In this document: in pieces, positions 52,614-57,851 of the stretch | How positions within the stretch are numbered: the stretch's first letter is position 1 | How the letters are laid out: each line of letters opens with the position of its first letter | NCBI GenBank assembly: GCA_030066595.1 | Contig: JASJBI010000032.1 | Span: 62,001-126,000 of the forward strand | DNA: 64,000 nt | Origin: Alphaproteobacteria bacterium | GTDB lineage: Bacteria > Pseudomonadota > Alphaproteobacteria > JAJFFI01 | Direction of reading: 5' to 3' | The notes under the pieces: model-generated | What the model was told of the DNA's origin: nothing | The model's database searches: none | Seen by the model: the letters and a program-made list of their open reading frames with translations, nothing else | Made by a program: the position numbers and the translations under genes

Positions 52614-53570
52614 ATGCTCGAGGACAGAGAAGCTTGGCGGCTGGTCCTGGCGCTGGTCGAAAGACTGGATCGGACCGTGGCGGCCCGCCCGGCGGCTCTC
52701 GCCGGGACGGGCCGGTCGCAGCGGCCGGACACGTGGTCGCTCGCGGTACCGGGCCTGACGACGGCGGACGGCGTCCCGGGCGGGGGCCCAGGGCTGGTGG
52801 TGACGCCCGAGGGCGACTGGCAAAGCAGTCATCCGGTCGCGCCTCAGGCGAAGGCTCTGTTCGACCTGTATGTGCCGCTGTGTCTCGCCGCAGCGGCACG
52901 CGCGCGCAAGGGCAGCGTGTTCACCGTCGCCCATCTGGGCCAGAGCCTCGACGGCCGTATCGCAACCACGGGCGGCGCCTCGCAATGGATCACCGGCGAG
53001 CCCGATAGGACGCATACCCACCGCATGCGGGCTCTGTCCCAAGCGGTCGTCGTCGGCGCCGGCACCGTCCGGCACGACGATCCTCAGCTCACGGTACGTC
53101 ACTGCGAGGGCGCCAATCCCCTGCGCGTGGTGATCGATACCGAACGCCGGCTGGGCGAAGGCCATACCGTGTTCCAGGGCGACGCGGCGCCGACTTTGCT
53201 GGTCTGCGCTGAGGAGCTCGCGACGGAGTCACACCATGGCGCGGCCAGGGTTGTCGGCTTGCCGAGGTATCGCGGCAACGAGAGCGATACGGTCGGGGAG
53301 GGCATCGATCCCAACGCAGTCTTGGAGGAACTCGCCCTTGCGGGCCTCACGCGTGTCTTCGTCGAAGGCGGAGGCATTACCGTGTCGCGTTTCCTGCGGG
53401 CGGCGTGTCTCGACCGACTGCAGGTCACGGTCTCGCCGTTGATTATCGGCGCCGGCCGTCCCGGCATTTCGCTTCCCGAAGTCGATAGCGTCAGTGGCGG
53501 TCTGCGTCCAGCCACACGGCGCTTTGAGCTCGGCGAGGATGTCATGTTCGAGTGCGACTTTGGCGGCTGA
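52614..53570 (+). CDS. RibD C-terminal-like reductase, stand-alone
   Basis: The 318-residue protein has about 100 N-terminal residues of unknown function, then a RibD-C/dihydrofolate-reductase-type domain. The reductase motifs are LGQSLDGRIATTGGASQWIT, AVVVGAGTVRHDDPQLTVR and VFVEGGGITVSRFL. In riboflavin synthesis this fold reduces a ribosylamino-pyrimidine. The zinc deaminase half of RibD is absent. It starts a five-gene tight operon, which suggests a role outside normal riboflavin synthesis. Confidence 0.83.
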   Translation: MLEDREAWRLVLALVERLDRTVAARPAALAGTGRSQRPDTWSLAVPGLTTADGVPGGGPGLVVTPEGDWQSSHPVAPQAKALFDLYVPLCLAAAARARKGSVFTVAHLGQSLDGRIATTGGASQWITGEPDRTHTHRMRALSQAVVVGAGTVRHDDPQLTVRHCEGANPLRVVIDTERRLGEGHTVFQGDAAPTLLVCAEELATESHHGAARVVGLPRYRGNESDTVGEGIDPNAVLEELALAGLTRVFVEGGGITVSRFLRAACLDRLQVTVSPLIIGAGRPGISLPEVDSVSGGLRPATRRFELGEDVMFECDFGG

Positions 53571-53574
53571 GGCG

Positions 53575-54561
53575 GTGACGGACGTGACCGCATCCGAATG
53601 TCGTGCCTTCTGGGTTACAGCACCGGGTCGGAGCGAAATCCGCACGGTGCCTTTGCCCGAGTCGGAACCCGACCAGGCGCTTGTGCGCACCCGCCTTTCG
53701 GCGATCAGCCGCGGGACCGAGAGCTTGGTGTTCCATGGCCACGTGCCGCAAAGCCAATACCAGGCCATGCGATGTCCTTTTCAGGAAGGCGACTTCCCGG
53801 GGCCGGTGAAGTACGGCTACATCTCCGTCGGTGACGTCGAGCGCGGCGCGGCAGACTGGGCGGGACGGCGGGTGTTCTGTCTCTACCCGCATCAGGATCT
53901 CTACGTGGTGCCGGTCGACGCCCTGCTGCCAATTCCCGATGCGGTCCCCGACGAGCGCGCGGCCCTTGCCGCCAATCTCGAGACTGCGATCAACGGACTC
54001 TGGGACGGCGCGCCCGGGATCGGCGACCAGGTCGCGGTTGTGGGCGCCGGGGTTGTCGGTCTCTTGGCGGCCACGCTGGTCGCTCGCATCCCCGGAGTCG
54101 CGGTCCAGGTGATCGACATCGATCCGACCAAGGCCGAGGTCTGTGACCGGCTGGGCCTGGCGCTGACCTCGCCAGACGGCGCGTCGGACGGGGCGGATCT
54201 GGTGATTCACGCCAGTGGGTCGCCCGATGGGCTCGACACGGCGCTCGGCATTGCCGGGATGGAGGCCACCGTTCTCGAGCTGAGCTGGTATGGCGACAAG
54301 TCGGTTTCCGTGAGGCTGGGCGCCGACTTTCATGCCCGGCGTCTGACCCTGAAATCGTCACAGGTGGGCCGGGTGCCGTCCCAAAGGCGTTCGCGCTGGA
54401 CCAGCCGGCGGCGGCTTGCCCTCGCGCTCGATCTGCTCACGGACCCCGTCTTCGACGCCCTGATCGGCGGGCACAGCGCCTTCGCGGATCTGCCCGCGAC
54501 CATGGCGCGATTGGCTGCGGACCCCGCCGGCGAGCTGTGCCACATTGTTCGCTACGACTAG
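53575..54561 (+). CDS. MDR-family (zinc-type alcohol dehydrogenase-like) oxidoreductase
   Basis: The 328-residue protein has an N-terminal GroES-like domain with SAISRGTESLVFHGHVP. A Rossmann domain with VAVVGAGVVGLLAATLVARI and the acidic VQVIDIDPTK follows, favouring NAD over NADP. The usual zinc motif GHE is replaced by the region KYGYISVGDV, so it resembles BchC-like members rather than classical zinc alcohol dehydrogenases. GTG at 53575 lies five bases after the previous stop; GTG 53584 is possible. The substrate is unknown. Confidence 0.82.
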   Translation: MTDVTASECRAFWVTAPGRSEIRTVPLPESEPDQALVRTRLSAISRGTESLVFHGHVPQSQYQAMRCPFQEGDFPGPVKYGYISVGDVERGAADWAGRRVFCLYPHQDLYVVPVDALLPIPDAVPDERAALAANLETAINGLWDGAPGIGDQVAVVGAGVVGLLAATLVARIPGVAVQVIDIDPTKAEVCDRLGLALTSPDGASDGADLVIHASGSPDGLDTALGIAGMEATVLELSWYGDKSVSVRLGADFHARRLTLKSSQVGRVPSQRRSRWTSRRRLALALDLLTDPVFDALIGGHSAFADLPATMARLAADPAGELCHIVRYD

Positions 54562-54571
54562 GGAGCCTGCG

Positions 54572-54979
54572 ATGTACGCTTTGTCCGTCCGGGACCATGT
54601 GATGATCGCCCACAGCCTCAAAGGCGATGTGTTCGGACCGGCCCGGCAGCTGCACGGTGCCACCTATGTGGTCGATGCCGAGTTCCGCCGGAGCCACCTC
54701 GACGCCGATGGCCTGGTCCTCGACATCGGTCTTGCCGGGCGTCTGCTGAAAGAAGTGCTGGCACCGCTGAACTACCGGAACCTGGACGAGCTTCCCGACT
54801 TTCAGGGCCGCAACACCACGACGGAGGCGCTGTCCCGGCATGTGTTTGTCGGCTTGCGGAACAAGTTGGTCGCATCGGGCGTCGCATTGGGCGAGAACGG
54901 CCTCGACCATCTCAAGATCACCTTGCACGAATCCCATGTCGCCTGGGCGAGCTACGAAGGCGCGCTGGTTGCCGACTGA
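54572..54979 (+). CDS. 6-pyruvoyl-tetrahydropterin synthase-like protein, divergent active site
   Basis: The 135-residue T-fold protein is of the PTPS/QueD superfamily. It keeps the first zinc-type His (MIAHSL), LHG and the pterin-anchoring Glu region HLKITLHESHVAWASYEG. The catalytic Cys before LHG is replaced (GPARQLHGA), and the usual HGH zinc pair is HGA. It is therefore unlikely to do the standard QueD reaction in the standard way. A GGGAG ribosome site precedes the ATG. Spacing is 10 bases on each side within the operon. Confidence 0.8.
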   Translation: MYALSVRDHVMIAHSLKGDVFGPARQLHGATYVVDAEFRRSHLDADGLVLDIGLAGRLLKEVLAPLNYRNLDELPDFQGRNTTTEALSRHVFVGLRNKLVASGVALGENGLDHLKITLHESHVAWASYEGALVAD

Positions 54980-54989
54980 TCGAAGGTCC

Positions 54990-56054
54990 ATGACAGACGC
55001 GGTGATTCATTTCGCTGTGCCCGGATCGCTGGACCGGCGCACCGGCGGAACGATCTATGACCGGCGGATGATCGAGGCGCTGCGCGCCGCCGGGCGCGAG
55101 GTCGTGGCGCATGAGCTGCCGGGACCGTTTCCGCAGTCGGACAGCACGGGGCAGGCAGCGGCGGCCCAGATCCTGCGAGCCGCGGACGCAACTGCGGTCG
55201 TGGTGATCGATGGCCTGGCCCTGCCGGCCTTCGAGCCTGGTCTCGGAGCCATGGCTGGGTCGCGTCCGCGCTGTGTGGTGTTGTGCCATCATCCCCTGGC
55301 CTTGGAGACGGGCCTGGACCCGGCCATGCAGGCCGATCTGCGTCGGCGCGAAGGCGCGTTGTTCAGCCAGGCGGATCGCGTCATTGCGCCCAGCGACCAC
55401 ACCGCCCATGCCGTCGGCGGCTACGGCGTGGCGGCCAGACGGATCACCGTGGTGCGCCCCGGGGCCGACATCCCGCCGGGCGGCGTCGCGGCGGCGCGGA
55501 GCGAACCGAAGGATCCCGCCTGGCTGCTATGCGTCGGCAACCTGATCCCCCGCAAAGGGCACCGGGTGCTGATCGATGCGCTGGCCCGGCTTCCGGATCT
55601 ACCCTGGCGGCTGTGCTGCGTCGGAGCGCTGGACCACGACACGGAGACGGTCCGCGACGTGCGCGCCGCCGTCGACCGCCATGGGCTCGGCGATCGCATC
55701 AGGTTCATGGGTTCGATCGAGGGCACGGCGCTGAATGCACCCTACCGGGAGGCGGACCTGTTCGTGCTGCCGTCCTTCTACGAGGGCTATGGCATGGTCT
55801 TCGCCGAAGCGATGCTGCGCGCTTTGCCGATCGTCGCGGCCAAGGGCGGGGCTGTGCCCGAGACGGTGCCGGCCACGGCAGGCCTGCTGGTTCCGCCCGG
55901 CGACGCAGCCGCCTTTGCCGATACGCTGCGCCGCGTCCTGTGCGACCGGGCGCTCTACCGGCGGCTGTCCGAAGGTGCGGCGGCCGCCGCTCGTTCGCTG
56001 CCGTCCTGGTCCCAGGCGGCGCAGGCCTTCGCCGCCGCGCTCGACGCTGCTTGA
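54990..56054 (+). CDS. Glycosyltransferase family 4 protein
   Basis: The 354-residue GT-B enzyme has the donor-binding region LLCVGNLIPRKGHRVLIDAL. Its E-x7-E motif (YEGYGMVFAEAMLRALP) is followed by KGGAVPETV, typical of retaining GT4 enzymes. It would transfer a sugar from a nucleotide-sugar donor; donor and acceptor are unknown. Its place between a PTPS-like gene and a methyltransferase, rather than among polysaccharide genes, suggests a small-molecule acceptor. Confidence 0.86.
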   Translation: MTDAVIHFAVPGSLDRRTGGTIYDRRMIEALRAAGREVVAHELPGPFPQSDSTGQAAAAQILRAADATAVVVIDGLALPAFEPGLGAMAGSRPRCVVLCHHPLALETGLDPAMQADLRRREGALFSQADRVIAPSDHTAHAVGGYGVAARRITVVRPGADIPPGGVAAARSEPKDPAWLLCVGNLIPRKGHRVLIDALARLPDLPWRLCCVGALDHDTETVRDVRAAVDRHGLGDRIRFMGSIEGTALNAPYREADLFVLPSFYEGYGMVFAEAMLRALPIVAAKGGAVPETVPATAGLLVPPGDAAAFADTLRRVLCDRALYRRLSEGAAAAARSLPSWSQAAQAFAAALDAA

Positions 56055-56061
56055 GCGGATC

Positions 56062-56868
56062 ATGGGTGGTTTCCCTCTGGATTGGCTCGACCTGCGCGCA
56101 CCTCAGGATCGCAAGTCTCGCTCCGCCACGCTCGCTGCGCGCTTTGCGGCAGCCGTTGCGGGTGCGCACAGGCCGGCAACGGTTCTCGATCTGGGTGCGG
56201 GGGCGGGCGCGAACGCGCTCTATCTGGCTCCATACCTGGACCGCCGCTCCCGCTGGATTCTGGTCGACAACGACCCGGCGCTGCTGCAGATGGCGCAGGA
56301 CCGCGCGGCCGGCGTCGGGCTGGCGGCCGAGATCCTTCGCCTGGATCTCGCAGCGGACCTGGGATCGCTCTCCCTGGACCGGGCTGCGGGCGTGTCTGCG
56401 TCGGCGCTGATGGATCTGGTGTCGGGGTCCTGGTTTGCCGATCTGGCGGGCCGCTGCGCGGCCGCCCGCCTGCCGCTGTTGTTCGTCCTGACCTATGACG
56501 GGCGTCTGGCATTCTCCCCCGCGGATCCCGCGGACGGCTGGATCTGCGACGGATTCAACGTCCACCAGCGGCAGGACAAGGGCTTCGGGCCGGCCCTGGG
56601 TCCATCCGCGGTCTCGGAGATGGCCCGAATCCTCGCGGATTTCGGATATCGTGTCGATTTCGAAACGAGCGATTGGAGCGTGACGACTGAGGATGGCGAT
56701 CTGCTGCGGGAGGTTGTCGACGGGGTCGCGGATGCAGTGCTGTCCGTGCGCAAGGGCGACGTCCCCCGAATCGAAAGCTGGCGGGGGCGTCGACACGCGG
56801 AGATCGCAGACCGGGCCCTCTCACTGGTCATCGGCCATGCCGATCTCCTCGCCTTGCCGCCCGTTTGA
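56062..56868 (+). CDS. Class I SAM-dependent methyltransferase
   Basis: The 268-residue protein has SAM motif I TVLDLGAGAGANALYL and motif II-type acidic WILVDNDPALLQMA. The later part (ALMDLVSGSWFADLAGR) is family-like. The acceptor is unknown. It starts seven bases after the glycosyltransferase stop, so it is probably coupled to it, and ends the core five-gene cluster. Confidence 0.82.
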   Translation: MGGFPLDWLDLRAPQDRKSRSATLAARFAAAVAGAHRPATVLDLGAGAGANALYLAPYLDRRSRWILVDNDPALLQMAQDRAAGVGLAAEILRLDLAADLGSLSLDRAAGVSASALMDLVSGSWFADLAGRCAAARLPLLFVLTYDGRLAFSPADPADGWICDGFNVHQRQDKGFGPALGPSAVSEMARILADFGYRVDFETSDWSVTTEDGDLLREVVDGVADAVLSVRKGDVPRIESWRGRRHAEIADRALSLVIGHADLLALPPV

Positions 56869-56966
56869 CCTCGCATCGGCAGGCTTGGGATGCGGCCTCT
56901 GGCGTCGCCTTGACTGTTTCCCGTAGTATGACCGCCGCTTTGGGAATGGGCGTGAGAGAGGGACAC

Positions 56967-57851
56967 GTGGCGATCTATCGGCAGTACGATCAGGCGGCGC
57001 TGGATTCGCAATACAACAATCGCGCCCGGGTGCCAGATTTCGCCGACTATTTTCAGCGTTGGGACGAGCAGAGCGCCGCGGTCCGGTCCGCCGCCGACGC
57101 GGCACTGAACATCGCCTACGGATCCGATCCGCGTCATCGGCTCGACATATTTCCCGCGGGCCCCAGACCGGCGCCGACGCTGGTCTTTATTCACGGTGGT
57201 TACTGGCAGTTCCTGGATAAGGATCACTTCAGCTATCTCGCGCCCAGTTTCGCCGAGAAGGGGGCCGCCTATGTGGCCGTCGGCTATCCGCTCGCGCCGG
57301 CCGTAACCCTGGACGACATCACGGCCAGCGTCCGATCCGCCTTGGCGTGGCTGTGGCGGTACGGTCGGGAGCACGGGGTTGATCCGAGCCGCCTGCATGT
57401 CGCGGGCCATTCCGCTGGCGGTCATCTGGCGGTCGAGGCCTTGGCCACCGACTGGCCGGCCTTCGCCGACGACCTGCCGGACGGCCTCGTGAAAAGCGCC
57501 ACGGCGATCAGCGGTCTCTACGATCTCGAGCCCATCCGCGTGAGCTATCACAACGCCGGCCTGCACCTCGATCCGGCGGCCGCTGACCGAAACAGTCCGA
57601 TCCACCACATACCCGGCCAAGCCGGACCGCTGCTGCTGGCAGTTGGCGGCGAGGAGTCCGAGGAGTTTCACAGGCAGCAGGCGGATTTTTGTGCTGCCTG
57701 GCGTGGTGAGGGCCGTCCGGTGACCGCGCTCGAGCTCCCCGGACGGAACCACTTCAGCGTGGTCGAGGATCTGCACCAGGGCGATAACCCCTTGTTTCAT
57801 GGGGTGTGCGACCTGATATGGGGAACGGAAGAGAGGATATGCAGCCCTTGA
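56967..57851 (+). CDS. Alpha/beta hydrolase, arylformamidase-like
   Basis: The 294-residue cytoplasmic hydrolase has the oxyanion-hole motif FIHGGYWQFLDK, the nucleophile elbow VAGHSAGGHLAVEAL and a C-terminal His in LPGRNHFSVVEDL. This resembles kynurenine formamidase-like esterases. The GTG at 56967 is chosen for its AGAGAGGGA ribosome site; GTG 56952 is an alternative. A 98-base gap follows the methyltransferase, so it may or may not belong to the cluster. No other kynurenine genes are nearby. Confidence 0.82.
   Translation: MAIYRQYDQAALDSQYNNRARVPDFADYFQRWDEQSAAVRSAADAALNIAYGSDPRHRLDIFPAGPRPAPTLVFIHGGYWQFLDKDHFSYLAPSFAEKGAAYVAVGYPLAPAVTLDDITASVRSALAWLWRYGREHGVDPSRLHVAGHSAGGHLAVEALATDWPAFADDLPDGLVKSATAISGLYDLEPIRVSYHNAGLHLDPAAADRNSPIHHIPGQAGPLLLAVGGEESEEFHRQQADFCAAWRGEGRPVTALELPGRNHFSVVEDLHQGDNPLFHGVCDLIWGTEERICSP

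Follow-up and report, generated by a model that had tools for sequence, protein, structure and literature searches.

A conserved gene cluster around a PTPS-IV protein and the GTP-derived, pterin-like product it may encode

Introduction

What might be made by five closely packed genes that combine enzymes of pyrimidine and pterin chemistry with a glycosyltransferase and a methyltransferase? The question is raised by a stretch of 64,000 nucleotides of alphaproteobacterial DNA (contig JASJBI010000032.1), hereafter the window, in which a RibD_C reductase, an MDR dehydrogenase, a PTPS-fold protein, a GT4 glycosyltransferase and a class I S-adenosylmethionine (SAM)-dependent methyltransferase (MT) follow one another. 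The window is part of a genome of 5.08 Mb in 119 contigs, about 90% complete, with one PTPS gene in all. A sequence-only reading of the window had proposed a dedicated small-molecule pathway distinct from standard riboflavin, queuosine and folate synthesis. Here, we follow this idea through related genomes, protein families and structures. We estimate a probability of about one half that the operon supplies the greater part of a dedicated pathway to a GTP-derived, pterin-like small molecule that is then glycosylated and methylated. We are nearly certain that a dedicated pathway exists around the PTPS-fold protein, which belongs to subfamily PTPS-IV, and consider it very probable that the product is built from a GTP-derived pyrimidine or pterin.

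A gene set conserved across phyla

Searching species genomes for relatives of the PTPS protein gave at least 483 confirmed matches, and the neighbourhoods of the best 80 loci were read after calling their genes with a codon model. Most of these loci belong to Proteobacteria, Actinobacteria and Acidobacteria; the exceptions are single contigs labelled otherwise. One such case (L079) is a short contig labelled as a Natrialbaceae archaeon, for which a binning error is possible. Because some loci end at contig ends, the partner counts are lower bounds: MDR was found 80 times, PTPS 81 (with the window's own copy), GT4 78, MT 61 and RibD_C 57. The order MDR-PTPS-GT4-MT is conserved across phyla (median gaps 22, -4 and -4 bases), and its recurrence in Proteobacteria, Actinobacteria and Acidobacteria is far beyond chance. 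The survey of synteny suggested by the sequence-only reading hence finds the five genes together in other genomes of several phyla.

The same reading had named GTP cyclohydrolase II (GCH2) as a partner to look for, and this gene lies in the cluster in 48 of the 80 loci, followed in frequency among the further soluble partners by a creatininase (45). Membrane-associated and other partners are a CDP-alcohol phosphatidyltransferase (CDP-OH, 60), LPG_synthase_TM (49) and a sulfatase-like protein (31), and rarer ones are an FkbM methyltransferase (20), YceI (16) and a glucan-synthase-like GT2 (15). The GT2 genes, of OPGH type, are found next to the cluster in halomonads and in some alphaproteobacteria. 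At L016, L021, L015, L053 and L146, OPGH and FkbM genes stand beside the cluster or in a second locus.

The set is reduced to a few genes in two streamlined alphaproteobacterial genomes, G144 (1.65 Mb) and G231 (1.4 Mb), with a GC content of 26-28%. Both carry a bare block of creatininase, MDR, PTPS, GT4, MT, RibD_C and GCH2, from which the membrane genes are absent, and these seven genes are therefore taken as the soluble core. The five-gene cluster first described is real, and the pathway around it is larger, with this core joined in most lineages by a membrane module.

Co-occurrence and unlinked partners

Co-occurrence, also proposed as a check in the sequence-only reading, was analyzed in 288 alphaproteobacterial genomes drawn evenly from more than 140 families of this one class. 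A PTPS-IV ortholog is present in 36 of them (E ≤1.6e-29; next match 2e-6), and the MDR ortholog occurs in exactly the same 36 (E ≤5e-50; next 8e-11; Fisher p 1e-46). CDP-OH orthologs were found in 20 of these 36 genomes and in none of the 252 others (p 2e-21). The p values overstate the evidence, since related genomes are not independent. For the creatininase the enrichment is only moderate (19/36 versus 31/252, p 1e-7), less sharp because the family has many paralogs.

Several genomes distribute the set over separate loci. In G027 a second locus, RibD_C-FkbM-YceI-CDP-OH-GT2, lies about 65 kb from MDR-PTPS-GT4-MT; elsewhere, GCH2 stands beside CDP-OH (G156) or CDP-OH-YceI-FkbM form a group of their own (G014). 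Such split loci favour a functional link over an inherited neighbourhood. The window's genome is itself of this kind: the best relative of the cluster creatininase is encoded on contig C14 (52% identity), relatives of CDP-OH (50%) and YceI (56%) lie side by side on contig C21, and GCH2 was found only in the riboflavin operon on contig C20, together with a canonical ribD.

The PTPS-IV protein

SCO6650 of Streptomyces coelicolor (PDB 3d7j) is an ortholog of the window's PTPS protein and its sole match in the PDB (phmmer E 5e-44, residues 1-132). In an alignment of 79 members the zinc-ligand motif LHGH has become LHGA and the catalytic Cys before HG is gone in essentially all of them, and the catalytic Asp-His pair (LDHH in Escherichia coli QueD) reads LNYR or similar. 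The pterin-anchoring Glu (E120) is invariant in 79/79. Spoonamore et al. are said to have found, with the SCO6650 structure in 2008, that zinc, triad and PTPS activity are all absent.

The subfamily assignment to PTPS-IV follows from an FGPAQ-type signature, which reads FGPAR in the window; this is a conservative variant, as the last position is Q in 74 and R in 4 of the 79 sequences. QueD (PTPS-I) was rejected, with 36 bits against the TIGR03367 cut-off of 89.25 and no CxxxHGH motif, and so were PTPS-II and PTPS-III, whose CxxxxxHGH and ExxHGH motifs [PMC5041015] are absent. The fold originally assigned to the protein is correct, whereas a working PTPS or QueD does not fit a PTPS-IV member that has lost its catalytic triad and one zinc ligand.

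Linking the protein to pterin or pyrimidine chemistry points to the right chemical neighbourhood and is in part not new: the occurrence of PF00925 (GCH2) and PF01872 (RibD_C) near PTPS-IV was published in 2017 [PMC5445326]. The window protein shares full-length orthology, the signature type and the absent triad with SCO6650 and PTPS-IV. It differs in its FGPAR sequence. Of the two published neighbours, RibD_C lies in the same cluster in the window, whereas a dedicated GCH2 does not, although GCH2 is part of the cluster in 48 of the 80 loci. The published neighbourhood comprises only the two Pfam families and names no product.

Reductase, dehydrogenase and tailoring enzymes

The first gene of the operon encodes, as initially described, a RibD_C reductase without a deaminase. 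A bifunctional RibD was rejected for want of the N-terminal deaminase domain and with a TIGR00326 score of 123 bits (cut-off 156); the N-terminal ~95 residues match no known family. The closest PDB structure is 6p8c, a 2,5-diamino-6-ribosylamino-pyrimidinone 5'-phosphate reductase (E 3e-21). With an invariant EGG motif, a strongly conserved GQSLDG and NADPH-site residues in its RibD_C domain, the protein fits a stand-alone ribosylaminopyrimidine reductase of the RED/Rib7-like type, although it scores 99 against the cut-off of 186 for the archaeal model TIGR01508. It is predicted from its sequence to reduce a ribosylaminopyrimidine to the ribityl form.

The second protein keeps its place in the MDR family with one correction, namely the loss of every catalytic zinc ligand. 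Among 64 aligned members (sorbitol dehydrogenase numbering), C45 is replaced by Ser and H70 by Tyr in 64/64, E71 by various residues and E156 by Ala or Gly, so that a zinc-dependent MDR alcohol dehydrogenase was rejected; the nucleotide-binding motif is retained. The match to PF00107 is 21.7 bits, under the cut-off of 31.8, and an identity as BchC was discarded at 41 bits (cut-off 291). The nearest match is a polyol dehydrogenase. BchC and the polyol dehydrogenases share the MDR fold with the window protein, which makes oxidation of an alcohol to a ketone plausible; sorbitol dehydrogenase, in contrast, has the zinc ligands that are missing here.

Two enzymes could decorate the product. The GT4 protein has a Glycos_transf_1 domain with the E-x7-E motif (EGYGMVFAE), and its structural matches are MshA and related enzymes. 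Its similarity to a tetrahydrobiopterin glucosyltransferase structure is weak (E 3e-5), no better than to many other GT4 enzymes. The MT, for which 40 orthologs were aligned, has an AlphaFold model with a pLDDT of 96.7 whose top Foldseek matches are all class I methyltransferases. The protein is a class I SAM-dependent methyltransferase of the small-molecule type with an ordinary fold, and the fold search did not narrow the substrate. GT4 and MT are fused into one protein in many Halomonas loci.

GTP cyclohydrolase II and creatininase

The cluster GCH2s retain the three zinc Cys and Arg128. The residue aligned with E. coli Tyr105 varies: Proteobacteria, Acidobacteria and Micromonospora have Tyr, Streptomyces has Met, and many other actinobacteria have His. 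In S. coelicolor SCO6655, Met at this position reportedly leads to release of the formamide. The Met and His variants would accordingly be expected in formamide-producing enzymes, an activity established for Met, and an adjoining ArfB-type deformylase of the creatininase family would then make sense. A general rule by which every cluster GCH2 produces formamide through a changed Tyr105 fails, as Tyr is kept in Proteobacteria. Members of the ArfB/creatininase family are formamide hydrolases of archaeal riboflavin and F420 synthesis. The cluster creatininase has in common with this family the creatininase fold, conserved metal-site residues and a place beside GCH2.

Several cluster GCH2s carry an N-terminal region of about 165 residues with no Pfam match (examples in Table 1), possibly the degenerate remnant of the DHBP-synthase half of RibBA.

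The combination recalls two known systems. The GCH2-RibD arm of riboflavin synthesis, in the archaeal and fungal order with reduction before deamination, shares GCH2 and a ribosylaminopyrimidine reductase with the cluster. The latter has neither a deaminase domain nor lumazine or riboflavin synthase, adds MDR, PTPS-fold protein, GT4 and MT, and coexists with separate canonical riboflavin genes. Pterin glycoside pathways, such as those with the cyanobacterial UDP-glucose:tetrahydrobiopterin glucosyltransferase or of limipterin type, share the logic of a glycosylated pterin, which for the cluster is a prediction from its genes. In those pathways the starting enzymes are GTP cyclohydrolase I and a PTPS that is active, whereas the cluster goes with GTP cyclohydrolase II and a PTPS that looks inactive.

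Proposed pathway

From the gene content, gene order, co-occurrence and residue losses described above we infer the following reactions, their order and their product. GCH2, dedicated in many lineages and in the window's genome probably the enzyme of the riboflavin operon, would open GTP to a 5-phosphoribosylated diaminopyrimidine or its formamide, from which the creatininase-family amidohydrolase would remove the formyl group where needed. RibD_C would turn the ribosyl group into ribityl. The zinc-less MDR could then oxidise a ribityl hydroxyl, most simply at C2', to give a 1-deoxy-pentulosylamine, an intermediate that GTP cyclohydrolase I forms as well, there by Amadori rearrangement. PTPS-IV would hold the 2-aminopyrimidinone via the conserved Glu and promote ring closure between the C2' ketone and the 5-amino group, yielding a 7,8-dihydropterin with a trihydroxypropyl side chain. 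As a T-fold protein that retains the Glu but has lost the PTPS chemistry, it is the natural candidate for this step; that a pterin ring is formed in this way is a tentative proposal. GT4 and MT would subsequently modify the side chain or the ring, and their genes are what suggests a glycosylated and methylated product. In lineages with the membrane module, CDP-OH may attach the product to a phospholipid or process it at the membrane, together with a flippase-like protein and with YceI as periplasmic carrier, although lipid attachment, too, is a possibility we hold with reserve. Literature searches on the gene combination, on SCO6650/SCO6655 and on a link between pterins and lipids returned no full pathway or product.

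Several points weigh against this scheme. Ring closure by PTPS-IV and C2' oxidation by MDR are argued from chemistry. Lipid attachment cannot be universal, given that the membrane module is missing from the two minimal clusters, and a deformylase role of the creatininase is not required in Proteobacteria, where the cluster GCH2s keep Tyr105. No dedicated GCH2 was found in the window's genome, in which the creatininase and CDP-OH genes are moreover unlinked. Finally, 33 of the 36 cluster-bearing genomes encode GTP cyclohydrolase I (FolE), so plain dihydroneopterin made by the cluster would be redundant.

Alternative explanations

The alternative that survives best keeps the dedicated pathway and drops the pterin ring: the product would be a glycosylated, methylated (ribityl)diaminopyrimidine or a lumazine- or deazaflavin-like compound, with PTPS-IV binding it or acting later. 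The riboflavin-type character of RibD_C and GCH2 is consistent with this, as are the missing triad and zinc ligand of PTPS-IV and a role of this subfamily in F420 mentioned as unpublished [PMC5041015]. We nevertheless find it rather unlikely, considering that the pterin-anchoring Glu is kept throughout PTPS-IV and that lumazine synthase or F420 genes were not identified among the recurrent partners in the 80 loci.

A second possibility is that the cluster serves mainly as a bypass of GTP cyclohydrolase I, supplying dihydroneopterin for folate synthesis. The gene chemistry is compatible with dihydroneopterin phosphate, and FolE is absent from G144, G204 and G231. In G144, tblastn identified folK and folP; in the same run as these are genes which we take, from position and sequence, to be folB, pabC, pabA and pabB, and ribA and ribD are present separately. 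Neither FolE nor FolE2 was found in the ~1.65 Mb fetched for this genome (some of it overlapping), even at weak thresholds and with an approximate FolE2 query. In G231, folP and folK are separated by a gap the size of folB, and FolE2 was not found in the 817 kb read of about 1.4 Mb (58%). However, incompleteness alone, summed over the genomes, would account for some 0.9 FolE losses, which leaves the three absences suggestive only; most cluster-bearing genomes do have FolE, and GT4 and MT, which folate does not require, are kept even in the minimal clusters. That the cluster is mainly a folate bypass is accordingly improbable. Unlikely, if less so, is a broader version in which the seven soluble genes provide a second way to the dihydropterin ring, independent of GTP cyclohydrolase I, by the steps proposed above and with ring closure on a PTPS fold whose catalysis has been rebuilt; its intermediate would also feed folate in streamlined alphaproteobacteria that lack FolE and in which FolE2 was not detected, and its pterin would be one that is glycosylated and methylated in most lineages and attached to phospholipid in many. 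As a separate observation, G206 encodes a divergent FolE paralog directly beside the cluster MDR, in addition to two other FolE genes.

The cluster might instead be a cell-envelope glycolipid system of CDP-OH, flippase-like protein, sulfatase-like transferase and GT2/GT4, in which the pyrimidine-type enzymes provide a minor head-group modification. Membrane genes in most loci, the occurrence of CDP-OH strictly in genomes with PTPS-IV, and the adjoining OPGH GT2 genes would all fit. But the two streamlined genomes hold the seven soluble genes only, and PTPS-IV and MDR occur without a CDP-OH ortholog in 16/36 genomes, and we regard this explanation as very improbable. That the genes serve standard riboflavin, queuosine or polysaccharide synthesis and cluster by accident hardly deserves credence: every protein has housekeeping relatives, yet cross-phylum synteny and perfect co-occurrence contradict it, as do the separate canonical ribD and GCH2 and a PTPS that lacks the QueD motif and stays far below the QueD cut-off.

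Genomic context

The five open reading frames (ORFs) of the operon are arranged as originally described, on one strand and separated by 4, 10, 10 and 7 bases (Table 1). The scanned neighbours include no riboflavin or queuosine genes, in agreement with the sequence-only reading. They are housekeeping or unrelated genes, encoding leucyl-tRNA synthetase, a CysN/CysC-type protein, an Ala_racemase_N protein, an L,D-transpeptidase, a hydrolase, a response regulator, a cyclase, oligopeptide permeases and ParA/ParB. The hydrolase that follows MT has a 52%-identical gene in the same place in L005 and in no other locus of the set; it is possibly a lineage-specific addition outside the conserved core. 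Directly upstream of the cluster lies an ORF of 307 residues, and downstream a protein of 432 residues with an adenylate/guanylate cyclase catalytic domain.

Table 1. Locations of the operon, its surroundings and related features in other loci. Positions without a locus or contig label refer to the window.
Feature	Location	Strand	Family match or remark
ORF of 307 aa	51482-52405	-	no family match; gene reality uncertain
RibD_C reductase ORF	52614-53570	+	PF01872, 147 bits
MDR dehydrogenase ORF, GTG start	53575-54561	+	weak to PF00107 and to BchC/threonine-dehydrogenase models
PTPS-fold ORF	54572-54979	+	PF01242, 84 bits
GT4 glycosyltransferase ORF	54990-56054	+	PF00534, 105 bits
Class I SAM-dependent methyltransferase ORF	56062-56868	+	PF13649, 29 bits (weak)
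Hormone-sensitive-lipase-type alpha/beta hydrolase	56928-57851	+	NF058665, 181 bits (cut-off 320)
Cyclase-domain protein of 432 aa	59673-60971		adenylate/guanylate cyclase catalytic domain
Relative of the hydrolase	L005 3948-4823		52% identity
Minimal seven-gene cluster	L138 8136-14068		streamlined alphaproteobacterium
Minimal seven-gene cluster	L139 5837-11771		streamlined alphaproteobacterium
GCH2 with N-terminal region	L074 12201-13325		~165 aa without Pfam match
GCH2 with N-terminal region	L138 12911-14068		~165 aa without Pfam match
Divergent FolE paralog, G206	C121:19535-20065 (L131)		beside cluster MDR

Window protein families were assigned with Pfam and NCBIfam models.

Conclusions

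PTPS-IV proteins are easily misnamed PTPS or QueD. For this subfamily, with a solved structure and no known function, the cluster now provides a complete, testable pathway context in many bacteria from several phyla. The conservation of the genes in very small genomes and the strict co-occurrence of genes that are sometimes distant from each other argue for an important metabolite and not for an occasional secondary product. If the proposed ring closure is true, it would be a new way of making pterins and could explain how folate is synthesized without GTP cyclohydrolase I.

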